From positions 1 through 53,911 of the forward strand of contig CANQFJ010000008.1 of the NCBI GenBank assembly GCA_947598485.1: a stretch of 53,911 nucleotides of DNA, in the 5' to 3' direction. The stretch comes from an uncultured Bacilli bacterium. Lineage in GTDB: Bacteria; Bacillota_I; Bacilli_A; RF39; UBA660. Shown piece after piece: positions 24,217-30,050 of this stretch (positions are counted from its first letter, which is position 1; each line of letters begins with the position of its first letter). The position numbers and the translations under genes were made by a program. The notes below the pieces were generated by a model. That model ran no database searches and was not told the DNA's origin. It saw nothing but the letters and a program-made list of their open reading frames with translations.

Positions 24217-25317
24217 ATGGCTTTAAAAGCGGGCATTGTAGGATTGCCTAACGTTGGAAAATCTACTTTATTTAATGCAATTACCAAAAAAAATATTATT
24301 GCCGCTAATTATCCGTTTGCAACTATTGAACCTAATGTTGGTATTGTTGAAGTTCCTGATGAAAGATTGGACTTCTTAAATGAAATGTATGAACCTAAAA
24401 GTTTAGTGCCAACAGCATACGAATTTATTGATATTGCCGGTCTAGTTGCCGGGGCTTCTCATGGTGAGGGACTAGGGAATAAGTTCTTATCTCACATTAG
24501 AGAAGTTGATGCTATAGTGGAGGTAGTTAGGTGCTTTGATAATGCCGAAATAACTCACGTGGCAGGTTCAACTGATCCTCTTCGTGATATTGATATTATT
24601 AATATTGAACTTATTTTATCTGATTTAGAAATTATTGAATCTCGACTTGGTAGAATTGAGAAAAAAGCTCAAGCAACAAAGGAAAAAGATGCTTTAGCAG
24701 AAGTTGCCCTTTTAAAAAAGCTTCAAGAAGCTTTAATTAATAATATTCCTGTAAGGAGAGTAGAGCTTACTAAAGAAGAAAACTTAATAATTAAAAACTT
24801 CAATTTAATAACGGCTAAAAAGGTTATATACGCTGCTAATGTTGATGAAGATACTGTAGCCGTAGGAGATAATGAATATACCAAAAAAGTTAAGGAATAT
24901 GCAGGTAGCGAAGGCTCTGCTGTTGTAGTTATATGCGCTAAAATGGAAGAAGACTTATCTTCCTTTGATGATGCTGAAAGAAAAGAATATTTAAAAGAAA
25001 TGGGAGTTACTAATTCAGGGCTTGATAAACTTATATATGCTACATATGATTTACTAGGTTTATCCACTTTCTTTACCTGTGGAAAAGATGAGGTAAGAGC
25101 GTGGACTTTTGCTAAAGGAACTAAAGCTCCATCTTGTGCAGGTATTATTCACTCAGACTTTGAAAGAGGCTTTATTAAGGCTGAAGTTATGAGCTTTGAT
25201 GATTTAAAGAAATACGGAAGCGAGGCTAAAGTAAGAGAGGCAGGTCGTTTACGTCTCGAGGGTAAAGACTATGTAATGCAAGATGGCGACATCTGTTACT
25301 TTAGATTTAATGTATAA
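24217..25317 (+). CDS. ychF: redox-regulated GTPase/ATPase YchF
   Basis: KAGIVGLPNVGKSTLFNAIT, NYPFATIEPNVGIV, RAWTFAKGTKAPSCAGIIHSDFERGFIKAEV. Confidence 0.97.
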   Translation: MALKAGIVGLPNVGKSTLFNAITKKNIIAANYPFATIEPNVGIVEVPDERLDFLNEMYEPKSLVPTAYEFIDIAGLVAGASHGEGLGNKFLSHIREVDAIVEVVRCFDNAEITHVAGSTDPLRDIDIINIELILSDLEIIESRLGRIEKKAQATKEKDALAEVALLKKLQEALINNIPVRRVELTKEENLIIKNFNLITAKKVIYAANVDEDTVAVGDNEYTKKVKEYAGSEGSAVVVICAKMEEDLSSFDDAERKEYLKEMGVTNSGLDKLIYATYDLLGLSTFFTCGKDEVRAWTFAKGTKAPSCAGIIHSDFERGFIKAEVMSFDDLKKYGSEAKVREAGRLRLEGKDYVMQDGDICYFRFNV

Positions 25318-26438
25318 TGAGTAAGGTTAATATTTATAAATGTGATTCTTATAATGATGAAGATGTTAAACCTGTTATTGATGAAATAATAGGTTTTTAT
25401 GATGAGCTTAAAAATATAAAACAAGGTACTAAAGTGGTCATTAAAGCTAATTTAGTCAGTGCTATGGCTCCAGAGAAAAGTGCAACTACTCATCCAAGCT
25501 TACTTAAACATTTAACTAATTATCTTTTAGAAAAAGGCTGTAGTGTTGTAATTGGCGATAGTCCCGGAGGAGTTTATACTAAACCTTATCTTAATGCGGT
25601 ATATAATGCTACAAAAATGAAAGAAACTAACGCGAAACTTAATGATAACTTTGCGACAGTTAAAACTACCTATGAAGGAGCTAAATTATTAAAGACTTTT
25701 GAATATACGGCTTATCTTGATGATGCTGATTTATTAATTAATTTTTCTAAGTTAAAGACTCATGGCATGATGGGAATGAGTGCCAGTGTAAAAAATCTAT
25801 TTGGTACTATTCCCGGAACTTTAAAACCCGAATATCATTATCGTTTTCCTAAACATGAAGACTTTGCTGATATGCTAATCGATTTAAATACTTATTTTAA
25901 AATGCCTATAAATATTATTGATGCTATTGATGGCATGGAAGGAAATGGCCCAACCGCGGGAAAATCTCGTCATATAGGATGCATCTTAACAAGCAGTAAC
26001 CCTTACGAACTTGATTATGTTGCTAGTAAGATTATTGGTTTAGTACCAGAAGAAGTCCCAACAATAAAAGAATCAATAAAAAGAGAGCTATGTTATCCTA
26101 ATAAAATAGAGCTTAATGATGATTTAAATAAATATTTAATTAAAGATTATGTTTTAATAAAAAGTCATCCTTTATTTTTTATGGATGATAAGAAACTTAT
26201 AGGAAAAATGGCTAATAAATTATTTAGTAATAAACCAGTTTGCAAAGAAAATAAATGTATTGGCTGCGCTAAATGTGCAAGCATTTGTCCTATGAAAGCC
26301 ATAACAATGGTAAATAAAAAACCTCATATTGATCGCACTAAGTGTATTAAGTGTTATTGTTGCCAAGAGTTTTGTCCTGTAGGAGCGATGCAAGTTAAGT
26401 CATCCATGATAATGAAGGTTTTACATAGACATAAGTAA
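25317..26438 (+). CDS. DUF362-domain protein with C-terminal 4Fe-4S ferredoxin module
   Basis: CIGCAKCASICPMKAI and CIKCYCCQEFCPVGAM. Confidence 0.9.
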   Translation: MSKVNIYKCDSYNDEDVKPVIDEIIGFYDELKNIKQGTKVVIKANLVSAMAPEKSATTHPSLLKHLTNYLLEKGCSVVIGDSPGGVYTKPYLNAVYNATKMKETNAKLNDNFATVKTTYEGAKLLKTFEYTAYLDDADLLINFSKLKTHGMMGMSASVKNLFGTIPGTLKPEYHYRFPKHEDFADMLIDLNTYFKMPINIIDAIDGMEGNGPTAGKSRHIGCILTSSNPYELDYVASKIIGLVPEEVPTIKESIKRELCYPNKIELNDDLNKYLIKDYVLIKSHPLFFMDDKKLIGKMANKLFSNKPVCKENKCIGCAKCASICPMKAITMVNKKPHIDRTKCIKCYCCQEFCPVGAMQVKSSMIMKVLHRHK

Positions 26439-26498: not shown

Positions 26499-27452
26499 AT
26501 GAAAAAGATTGTAATTTTCGGGGGAGGATCTGGCCTTTCTCAAATTTTAAAGGGATTAAAATTATTCCCTGTTGATATAACTGCTGTTGTTACTGTTTGT
26601 GACAATGGAGCCTCTACGGGTAAACTTCGTAAAGAAATGAATATACCTGCCGTTGGCGACATTACCAAAGTAATGGTGTCAATGTCTAACGCTAGTGAAG
26701 ATGTTATTAATCTTATGAACTACCGGTTTAAAAATCAAAGTGTTTATAATCACTCTATTAAGAATTTACTATTAACAGCCCTTTTAGATATGCATGGCAA
26801 TTTTGCAAATAGTTTGCCGGTTTTAGAAAATATTCTTGATATTGAAAATGGTAAAGTTTTACCTCTTACCGAAGATTCAGTTGATTTAATAGGAATCGCC
26901 GAAGACGGTCGTGAAATATATGGAGAAAATGAGGTTACTCACTCTCTTAGCAAAATAAGAGGTCTAAAATATAGTAAGCCAATTAATGTTAATCCTAAAG
27001 TTTTAAAGGCAGTTAAAGAAGCTGATTTAATAATTATATCTTCAGGTAGTTTAATTACTAGTATTCTTCCTCATTTAATTAGTGAAGAAGTAGTAAATGC
27101 TATTAAAAATAGTAAGGCTAAAACTATGTATATTTGTAACTTATTTACTCAACCTGGAGAAACTGATGATTTTAAAGTATCAGATCATATTAAGATATTA
27201 GAAAAATATTTAGGAAAAAATTCTATAGACATCGTACTTGCTAATTCTAAAAAAATGAGCAGTAAGCTTGCTTTAAAATACTCTACTAAAGAGCAAAAAG
27301 ATCCTGTAGAGCTTGATGAAGAAGAGCTTGAAAAGATGGGCGTACACGTTATAGGAGATGTTTTATATAAAATTGAAGATGGTTTTTACCGTCATGATTC
27401 ACTAAAAGTAGGATATCTAGTATTTTCTTACTTAATGGAAGGTAGAAAATGA
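26499..27452 (+). CDS. yvcK: YvcK/CofD-like protein (gluconeogenesis factor)
   Basis: KIVIFGGGSGLSQILKGL, VVTVCDNGASTGKLR, PAVGDI; start moved from 26445 to ATG 26499. Confidence 0.93.
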   Translation: MKKIVIFGGGSGLSQILKGLKLFPVDITAVVTVCDNGASTGKLRKEMNIPAVGDITKVMVSMSNASEDVINLMNYRFKNQSVYNHSIKNLLLTALLDMHGNFANSLPVLENILDIENGKVLPLTEDSVDLIGIAEDGREIYGENEVTHSLSKIRGLKYSKPINVNPKVLKAVKEADLIIISSGSLITSILPHLISEEVVNAIKNSKAKTMYICNLFTQPGETDDFKVSDHIKILEKYLGKNSIDIVLANSKKMSSKLALKYSTKEQKDPVELDEEELEKMGVHVIGDVLYKIEDGFYRHDSLKVGYLVFSYLMEGRK

Positions 27453-28360
27453 CCTATACAACATCACTTAAAGAAGAAATATCTAAAAGTGATTATAGTT
27501 TAATGGAGGCTAGATATGAACTCGAGGCCTTTATTAAATGCAGTGGTAAAATAAAATCAGATATAAAACTAACCCTAGAAAATGCTTCAGTAGCTCGCAA
27601 AATATATAAAGAAATGAAAATGGTTTATGATATTAATCCTACAATTACGATTCGTTTACAAAAACGTTTTAGAGTAAAACAAATATATATCTTAACCATT
27701 AAAGATAAAGTAGAATTTATCAAAGATGATTTAAATCTTTCAAGAATGACAAATGTGCCTTCGGTAAATGAAGAAAAAATTGCTTTCTTACAAGGTGCCT
27801 TTTTGGCATGTGGCAATGTATCCAATCCTCAAACAAGTGGCTATCATTTAGAATTTATTTGTAACAATACAGCGATGGCTAAAACAATCCAAAAGCTCTT
27901 AAATGATTTTAATCTAAATGCTAAAATAGTAGAAAGAGGCTATAAATATATTGTATATTTAAAATCTAGCGATAGTATAAGTGATTTATTAAGACTTTTT
28001 AAAGCAACATCATCTCTTTTCTTTTTTGAAGATATAAGAATATATAGAGATCATAAAAATATGGTTAATAGATTAAATAATTGTGAGATATCTAATCAAA
28101 CAAGAAGTATTGAAACAGGTGTGAAGCAGCTTGAAGAAATTAATTTCTTAAAAGAGCATGATTTAGTAGATATTTTAGATGATAAAACCAAAATAGTTTT
28201 GGAAGTTAGAGAGAAATATCCTGAATCATCTTTATCAGAGCTCGCCGAAATTATAACTTTGGAGTATAATTATAAAATAGGTAAATCAGGAGTTAATCAT
28301 CACTTTATAAAAATTAGTAATTTAGTAAAGAGGTATAAAGAAAATAATGAACATAAATAA
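27449..28360 (+). CDS. whiA: WhiA-like protein
   Basis: follows yvcK; LAGLIDADG-like AFLQGAFLACGNVSNPQTSGYHLEF; C-terminal HTH region. Confidence 0.93.
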   Translation: MTYTTSLKEEISKSDYSLMEARYELEAFIKCSGKIKSDIKLTLENASVARKIYKEMKMVYDINPTITIRLQKRFRVKQIYILTIKDKVEFIKDDLNLSRMTNVPSVNEEKIAFLQGAFLACGNVSNPQTSGYHLEFICNNTAMAKTIQKLLNDFNLNAKIVERGYKYIVYLKSSDSISDLLRLFKATSSLFFFEDIRIYRDHKNMVNRLNNCEISNQTRSIETGVKQLEEINFLKEHDLVDILDDKTKIVLEVREKYPESSLSELAEIITLEYNYKIGKSGVNHHFIKISNLVKRYKENNEHK

Positions 28361-28796
28361 AAGCATTAATACAACAATTATAACGGATAATAATGTAAAA
28401 GTCCTTGAATACTTCAAAGGAGAAAACATTGTTTCAAATCCCTTGAATCTCAAACTCGTAGATTCTGATTTTGTAGTGCTTAATGATGTTCTTAGATATT
28501 TAAAAGATAGTGATGTCCAAATTTTTTTAAAGAAATTAGAAAGTAAAAATATTCATTTTGTTAATATAACCTCGAAGATAGAGGAGGTTTTATATGCTCA
28601 AAGGCTTATTGTGTACACAGATGATAAAGTACAAATCGAAGGACCCGTTATAAGCGTTTTAAAAGAAGAGAGAATATTAAAAAAATTAGGTTTTGGCTTA
28701 CCTTTTATTTATGATTTATCTCTTCAGTTAAATTACTATGGTCTTATAGATTCCATATATTTAGATGAAAAAGTGTTGGTGGATAAACTATGGTAG
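28347..28796 (+). CDS. degenerate EcfA1-like protein lacking Walker A
   Basis: C-terminal similarity by eye: NITSKIEEVLYAQRLIVYTDDKVQIEGPVISVLKEERILKKLGFGLPFIYDLSLQLNYYGL; ecfA locus position. Confidence 0.6.
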   Translation: MNINKSINTTIITDNNVKVLEYFKGENIVSNPLNLKLVDSDFVVLNDVLRYLKDSDVQIFLKKLESKNIHFVNITSKIEEVLYAQRLIVYTDDKVQIEGPVISVLKEERILKKLGFGLPFIYDLSLQLNYYGLIDSIYLDEKVLVDKLW

Positions 28797-29341
28797 AAGA
28801 TATTTTAAAATTAGATTTTAACATTATTGGCGTAATTACTCCAAGAATTAACTTGCCCTCTTTTCCTAAAGACTTAAGCAAGGTAGTAACTTATAAGCCT
28901 GAAGAAAGTTTAAAAATTGTTGGGCTTGATATCAAAGATTTAGACAATTTATCAACAAAAGAATTTAGCAAATTACAGTTAGCAGCTTCATTAGGTAATG
29001 ATGTTATTGTTTTATATGACTTTTCTAAAGGGTTAAATCGCAAAGAAATAAACTACTTTAAATTAGTTTTTAAAAGAATTACTAAGCATTATAAAAAGGT
29101 AATTTTAGTTTCAAGAGATATTGAATTTTTAGCTACAACTTGCGATTATTTTGCCATTTATACCAATCATATTGTTTATAAAACTGATAATATATTTGAT
29201 GATAACTTATATAAGTATATCGATATGCCTAAGATAGTTAAGTTTATTAAATATGCCAATAGTAAAGGTGCATGCTTAAATGAAACAACTGACATTAATG
29301 AACTTATGAAAGATATATATCGGAGGGTCAATGAGAATTAA
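28790..29341 (+). CDS. degenerate EcfA2-like protein lacking Walker A
   Basis: LSTKEFSKLQLAASLGNDVIVLYDFSKGLN...KKVILVSRDIEFLATTCDYFAIYTNHIVYK aligns in order with signature/Walker B/H-loop. Confidence 0.65.
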   Translation: MVEDILKLDFNIIGVITPRINLPSFPKDLSKVVTYKPEESLKIVGLDIKDLDNLSTKEFSKLQLAASLGNDVIVLYDFSKGLNRKEINYFKLVFKRITKHYKKVILVSRDIEFLATTCDYFAIYTNHIVYKTDNIFDDNLYKYIDMPKIVKFIKYANSKGACLNETTDINELMKDIYRRVNEN

Positions 29342-30050
29342 ATTAATATTTAGTTATGATGGTTCTAAGTTTAATGGCTTTCAAAGGCAAAAAAATAGTC
29401 GAACCGTCCAAGGCGATATTGAAAAAGCTTTAAGTACTATTTATAATGACAAAATTGAAATAAAGGGTGCTGGTAGAACTGATGCTGGTGTACATGCCAT
29501 TGGTCAATGCGCTCATTTTGACGCTATTGACGATATACCCAAATTAAAAGATAGACTTAATGGTCTATTAAACCCCGATATTGTTATCAAAAAAGTTTCT
29601 AAAGAATCATTTAATTTTCACGCTAGATTCAGCGCTATAAAGAAGGAATATGTTTATAAGATTAATGTCGGAGCATATCAGGCTTTCTTAAATGGCTATT
29701 ATTATCAGCCTAGATTTAAATTAGATATTAATGCGATGAAAAAGGCTTCTAAATTATTCATAGGGACATACGATTTCAAAAACTTTGTTGCCGGTGAGAA
29801 AGATGATACTACAACGACAATATATAGCATAAAATTTAAAGAAAGATTTGGTAAGTTGGAAATCAGTTTTATTGGCGCGGGCTTTTACCGTTATATGGTA
29901 CGCAATTTAATGGGAGCTTTAATTGAGATAGGTAAATATAAAATAAATGAAGATACTATTAAGGAAATGCTATATAATCCACGAATCGCTAAAAGCTTAC
30001 CAACCGCTCCAAGTGAGGGTCTATATTTAAAGAAAATATGGTATAAATAG
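29331..30050 (+). CDS. truA: tRNA pseudouridine synthase A
   Basis: YDGSKFNGFQRQKNSRTVQGDIE, GAGRTDAGVHAIGQ. Confidence 0.97.
   Translation: MRIKLIFSYDGSKFNGFQRQKNSRTVQGDIEKALSTIYNDKIEIKGAGRTDAGVHAIGQCAHFDAIDDIPKLKDRLNGLLNPDIVIKKVSKESFNFHARFSAIKKEYVYKINVGAYQAFLNGYYYQPRFKLDINAMKKASKLFIGTYDFKNFVAGEKDDTTTTIYSIKFKERFGKLEISFIGAGFYRYMVRNLMGALIEIGKYKINEDTIKEMLYNPRIAKSLPTAPSEGLYLKKIWYK

Follow-up and report, generated by a model that had tools for sequence, protein, structure and literature searches.

Remnants of EcfA1 and EcfA2 that have lost catalytic motifs are maintained next to truA in a family of gut Bacilli

The classical ecfA1-ecfA2-ecfT-truA locus is represented in this DNA by two small open reading frames beside truA, which raises the question of what the two encode and why they are kept. 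The window analyzed is the whole stretch of 53,911 nucleotides; it is contig C8 in an assembly of 1.26 Mb that is 96.6% complete and whose relatives are uncultured Bacilli from rabbit gut. It contains a run of genes in the same direction: ychF, a DUF362/ferredoxin-like gene, yvcK, whiA, A1r, A2r, truA, rplM and rpsI. All of these names were read from translations except those of whiA and truA (Table 1). The two small frames (A1r and A2r) are present where the original prediction placed them; whiA and A1r overlap by 14 nt, A1r and A2r by 7 nt, and A2r and truA by 11 nt. The order A1-A2-truA is present and ecfT is missing from it. In the remaining family members examined, the genes upstream of the pair are other than whiA. 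The DUF362-like protein encoded at 25317-26438 has a C-terminal ferredoxin-type domain with two CxxCxxCxxxCP motifs; its gene overlaps ychF by one base, and this adjacency is conserved in the genus.

Table 1. Positions of the remnant genes, their degenerate motifs and domains, and the flanking genes in the window
Feature	Position	Strand	Basis
whiA, upstream neighbor in the window's genus	27449..28360	+	Pfam, locus comparison
A1r, EcfA1 remnant, 149 aa, without P-loop and signature	28347..28796	+	76.5 bits on the intact-only EcfA1 profile; NCBIfam; PDB chains
A1r C-terminal (EcfA heterodimer) domain, residues 104-149	28656..28793	+	Residue conservation in relatives
A2r, EcfA2 remnant, 183 aa, without P-loop	28790..29341	+	62.7 bits on the intact-only EcfA2 profile; fold match
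A2r LSTKE at the position of the ABC signature LSGGQ, both glycines lost	28949..28963	+	Alignment
A2r IVLYDF at the Walker B position; Asp to Tyr, catalytic Glu to Asp	29006..29023	+	Alignment
A2r SRD at the H-loop position; switch His to Arg	29111..29119	+	Alignment
A2r C-terminal domain, residues 134-183	29189..29338	+	Residue conservation in relatives
truA, constant downstream neighbor; ecfT absent between A2r and truA	29331..30050	+	Pfam, locus comparison

Pfam returns no match for either protein. A1r matches the NCBIfam model ECF_ATPase_1 (E = 3e-10) and solved EcfA1 chains (E = 2e-6), and the curated NCBIfam cut-offs are not reached: A1r scores 39.9 bits to TIGR04520 (315 needed), and A2r is unlisted for TIGR04520 and TIGR04521 (330). 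The identity test relied on profiles that exclude the remnants themselves and were built from only 22 relatives, each of which has EcfT and its full set of motifs. A1r scores 76.5 bits on the EcfA1 profile and A2r 62.7 bits on the EcfA2 profile, compared to 10 bits for the best of 1,000 shuffles. Profile-profile comparison gave E = 5e-26 for A1r and 9e-17 for A2r, with each protein preferring its own paralogue. Homology to EcfA1 and EcfA2 covers the C-terminal half and the C-terminal domain. A1r aligns only from residue 44 on, to positions 159-268 of the EcfA1 profile, which is approximately from Walker B onward and agrees with the prediction that just an EcfA1-like C-terminal part is retained. 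The coverage of EcfA2 by A2r starts just before the signature. These results identify A1r and A2r as the orthologues of ecfA1 and ecfA2.

The expectation of an EcfA fold was examined by structure prediction. The AlphaFold model of A2r (pLDDT 59, from a four-sequence alignment) was used for a Foldseek search of the PDB, which returned CbiO chains first (E = 1.7e-5) and EcfA chains shortly after; this match speaks against the refuting condition of no structural similarity to EcfA. For A1r the predicted model has too low a confidence to be used (pLDDT 44.5) and gave no significant fold match. When the four-sequence A2r alignment was used as a profile against the PDB, only chance-level matches came back, and the identity of A2r therefore rests on the intact-relative profiles and the fold match. 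The N-terminal piece of each predicted model is a strand followed by a helix; these short stretches may be what is left of the strand and helix that open the P-loop region.

The Walker A P-loop GxxGxGK[ST] is absent from both proteins in all six pair-bearing species of the genus. The LSGGQ signature, the Walker B DE and the H-loop histidine have no counterpart in A1r; A2r has LSTKE, LYDF and SRD instead, in the order of the canonical motifs and with the key residues replaced, as had been read from the translation. EcfT (PF02361) has no match anywhere in the assembly, and the S components PF12822 and PF07155 have none in the same genome. EcfT plus at least one S component, the combination taken to indicate a functional ECF transporter, was thus not found with these three families. 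A second, intact EcfAA' was sought among 11 ABC matches of solitary-ATPase length and rejected, since the best score 135-144 bits on the intact EcfA profiles versus at least 324 for true members. The predicted loss of both P-loops and of ecfT therefore holds, and none of these ABC matches is another EcfA.

A comparison across the family places this state in context. PF02361 is matched in only 117 of 386 genomes of the family. Because a good EcfA2 match was required for a locus to be picked, the counts do not give family-wide frequencies; 135 loci were retrieved and classified as 36 with a clear EcfT (4 of them outgroups), 17 with a short EcfT-like ORF and 82 with no recognizable EcfT. Both EcfA frames are retained in these 82, which come from approximately 50 genera by genome handle codes. 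The state therefore extends beyond the present genome. Among the clear-EcfT loci (n = 36), the P-loop is present in 35 for A1 and 35 for A2, and the H-loop in 24 and 25, respectively. Among the EcfT-less loci (n = 82), the signature is lost in 81 (A1) and 82 (A2) and kept in 1 and 0; the H-loop histidine is lost in 80 and 75 and kept in 2 and 7; and the P-loop is kept in 69 and 25. "Walker-A-less" is consequently an accurate description of the window's genus and a few others, but most EcfT-less relatives keep the A1 P-loop and lose only that of A2. The apparent order of loss runs from the signature and H-loop to EcfT, then to the A2 P-loop, the A1 P-loop and finally deletion, and the window, as judged from the motifs of these loci, is the extreme of a family-wide series. 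Parsimony on the truA tree, which represents one gene and has many forks open, gives 13 changes in the presence of EcfT, with at least 5 on starred branches.

Individual loci depart from these patterns. Three loci of one genus (L128, L129 and L117 from G202, G069 and G367) combine a good A2 P-loop with a signature of the form IS[DE]SE in an A2 that is only 223-228 aa long, which inverts the usual sequence of losses. Clear-EcfT genomes of family f1 (e.g. G024, G031, G034 and G018) have EcfAA'T and no PF12822 S component; PF07155 is also negative for G024 and G018.

In 23 genomes with a motif-poor EcfAA', the ecfT slot is occupied by a membrane ORF of 189-248 aa with 3-6 predicted TM segments. 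Seventeen of these are recognizable as EcfT-like, and the other six, which belong to the 82, are unrecognized by the EcfT profile. Several slot ORFs are barely or not recognized by Pfam CbiQ (L074, L075, L076, L081, L083, L086, L120, L141 and others). The presence of short EcfT-like or membrane ORFs at this position suggests that EcfT appears to shrink before being lost.

Selection on the frames was measured by comparing species. Within the window's genus, the four closest species give NG86 dN/dS values of 0.04-0.12; beyond the closest pairs, dS approaches saturation. Between G000 and G009, A1r has 37 synonymous and 8 non-synonymous differences (pN/pS 0.05, Fisher p = 1e-21) and A2r has 56 and 42 (pN/pS 0.18, Fisher p = 1e-21); truA has 88 and 45, with a Fisher p near 1e-21 or below. 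Between G003 and G004, pN/pS is 0.20 for A1r and 0.18 for A2r. The range of 0.05-0.20 for the pair in the genus is similar to that of the adjoining truA. Values of pN/pS lie at 0.13-0.33, all with p < 1e-5, in EcfT-less pairs of five other genera and in one pair whose EcfT has shrunk. The pair is found at the same position in 6 of 10 species of the genus, with open frames and no frameshift in any of the six. A neutral simulation with the base composition of each gene and 0.3 substitution events per site left 0.55% of A1r and 0.15% of A2r frames open with indels uncounted, and the conserved open frames are therefore far beyond chance. A pseudogene reading of A1r and A2r is rejected by the open frames and low dN/dS. 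Both frames are under purifying selection, as the original prediction had argued from the overlaps, and dN/dS is not near 1.

The constraint is distributed unevenly along the proteins. Residues P119, F120, L124, S125, L128, Y131 and W149 of A1r are 90-100% conserved in 81 EcfT-less relatives, and P147, F152, K174 and Y177 of A2r are 91-100% conserved in 82. In nearly all aligned EcfT-less relatives, P119, L128 and Y131 (A1r) and K174 (A2r) are unchanged, while W149 is identical in 94% and Y177 in 95%. Pairs matched at a TruA identity of 0.55-0.70, with an EcfT-intact reference from the same family, were used to compare domains. Identity in the ATPase C-half falls from 0.49 to 0.34 (A1) and from 0.59 to 0.41 (A2) between EcfT-intact and EcfT-less loci, and identity in the C-terminal domain falls from 0.58 to 0.53 (A1) and from 0.56 to 0.48 (A2). 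Among close species of the window's genus, the C-terminal domains are 0.95 (A1) and 0.90 (A2) identical. Constraint thus persists in both C-terminal domains and is relaxed in the ATPase cores. Across 79 EcfT-less loci, co-variation with TruA distance removed is 0.45 between the two C-terminal domains, 0.42 between the two cores and 0.19 for crossed comparisons, with a permutation maximum of 0.13. Domain-specific co-variation is the pattern expected of a retained side-by-side heterodimer, and part of it could come from shared rate changes.

We favor, with moderate confidence, the interpretation that the pair is a maintained, non-hydrolyzing EcfA1-EcfA2 heterodimer, held together by its C-terminal domains, that derives from an ECF vitamin transporter and was exapted to serve as scaffold or regulator. 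The two proteins would be made in step via the overlapping stop and start, and would stay paired through their C-terminal domains as in an intact EcfAA', a pairing to which the constraint and the domain-specific co-variation point indirectly. The loss of all catalytic motifs suggests that the pair does not hydrolyze ATP. In the bulk of the family the retained EcfA1 P-loop means that the pair probably still binds nucleotide without turnover. In the window's genus the P-loop would have been shed too, leaving the fold core and dimer domain, and nucleotide binding would be impossible by any known motif. The pair may then act as a small cytosolic scaffold or regulator of a putative partner, a role compatible with the findings.

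The main rival is slow decay, in which vitamin uptake becomes dispensable, the ECF module erodes stepwise, and residual constraint such as fold stability or the avoidance of toxic misfolding holds the frames for a while before deletion, with no new function. It accounts for the full gradient from intact to absent. In 4 of the 10 congeners (L035, L036, L038 and L039 from G008, G002, G005 and G001), whiA directly abuts truA and nothing of the pair remains; these junctions read as clean deletions, and the pair is therefore dispensable. It is absent also from G035 and probably G026, which belong to other genera. Divergence just after EcfT loss is rapid: G227 and G383 have TruA proteins that are 89% identical, and their A1 and A2 are 40% and 46% identical. 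Such fast change is the pattern expected of relaxed selection and was counted against a maintained heterodimer. The family has almost no S components of PF12822 or PF07155, which may mean that the transporter is losing its use. Slow decay does not account for the strong constraint in the most degenerate genus, where pN/pS resembles that of truA, or for the near-invariant C-terminal residues, and frames that close quickly in the neutral simulation are open in 6 of 6 congeners and 82 EcfT-less loci. We consider it unlikely, and still the most serious competitor.

A second rival keeps the pair at the membrane, as an ATP-binding, non-hydrolyzing EcfAA' that forms a gated facilitator together with a membrane protein, either a strongly diverged EcfT-like one or another, or that binds the membrane part of a different ABC system. 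The slot ORFs of the 23 motif-poor genomes and the A1 P-loop of most EcfT-less loci speak for this model. However, the spacing between A2 and truA is -25 to +60 nt in 70 of the 82 EcfT-less loci, so the ecfT slot is empty there, and the window's genome has no EcfT and its pair no P-loop. The window pair also lacks the part of the ATPase core upstream of the signature; judging by the known structures of ECF transporters, that part would make up the bulk of the groove that binds EcfT. These points make a membrane complex quite improbable. Retention for operon reasons only, with coupled translation through A1 and A2 bringing ribosomes to truA and the protein products irrelevant, would agree with the overlaps with whiA and truA and with the A1/A2 overlap kept in 133 of 134 loci, but it is already disfavored by the amino-acid constraint, which such a role would not yield, and by the congeners that join whiA straight to truA, and is very improbable. 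A 218 aa opposite-strand ORF lies between A1 and A2 at L119 (G185), the only sampled locus with a separated pair.

The constant position beside truA is ancestral and gives a weak hint that the proposed heterodimer may be linked to translation; a published cross-link of the ECF module to GatC in M. pneumoniae (PMC13047044) and the ancestral operon with truA, rplM and rpsI (PMC8046335) are hints of the same kind. More broadly, we tentatively suggest that these pairs may represent a new class of small proteins that are not ATPases, namely EcfA1-EcfA2 heterodimers that have given up ATP hydrolysis, EcfT and finally nucleotide binding, that are selected for a cytosolic function in the C-terminal dimer domain, and that arose in parallel several times in one gut Bacilli family with all intermediates alive. 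ABC-type ATPases are defined by their catalytic motifs, and a lineage that sheds these motifs one by one together with the transporter, yet selects for the leftovers, would be a natural experiment in turning a motor into a scaffold. The presence of ecfA1 and ecfA2 genes in such gut genomes is not in itself a sign of vitamin uptake, a point that matters when auxotrophies are predicted for a common gut group that is uncultured. RF39-type gut Bacilli are described as having strong genome reduction and lost vitamin pathways (PMC6784871, PMC7301438, PMC10868615), and these papers, as far as they were searched, contain no mention of ECF modules. No description of EcfT-less, ATPase-dead EcfA pairs was found in the open-licence PMC literature, in line with the initial impression of an undescribed state.

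The closest known relatives are EcfA1 and EcfA2 of group II ECF transporters (NCBIfam TIGR04520 and TIGR04521; PDB 5JSZ, 8BMR and 4HLU), whose two genes overlap as well. Unlike them, the pair described here lacks the P-loop, the signature glycines, the catalytic glutamate and the switch histidine, is 149 and 183 aa long rather than approximately 265-285 aa, and has neither EcfT nor a recognized S component in its genome. In TAP, SUR1 and similar heterodimeric ABC proteins, one of the ATP sites is degenerate. The asymmetric catalytic loss is shared with these, and nucleotide binding can survive in one subunit, as with the A1 P-loop of most EcfT-less relatives. TAP- and SUR1-type proteins retain their membrane domains and one site that still works or binds, whereas in the window's genus both sites are lost and there is no transmembrane partner. 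A Mycoplasma GatC with an S-component domain is predicted to dock on EcfA1A2T (PMC13047044). It resembles the present case in that ECF parts of a reduced Bacilli lineage are tied to a non-transport enzyme, there one of translation, and differs in that the ECF module is intact and the link is made via the S domain (PMC13047044).
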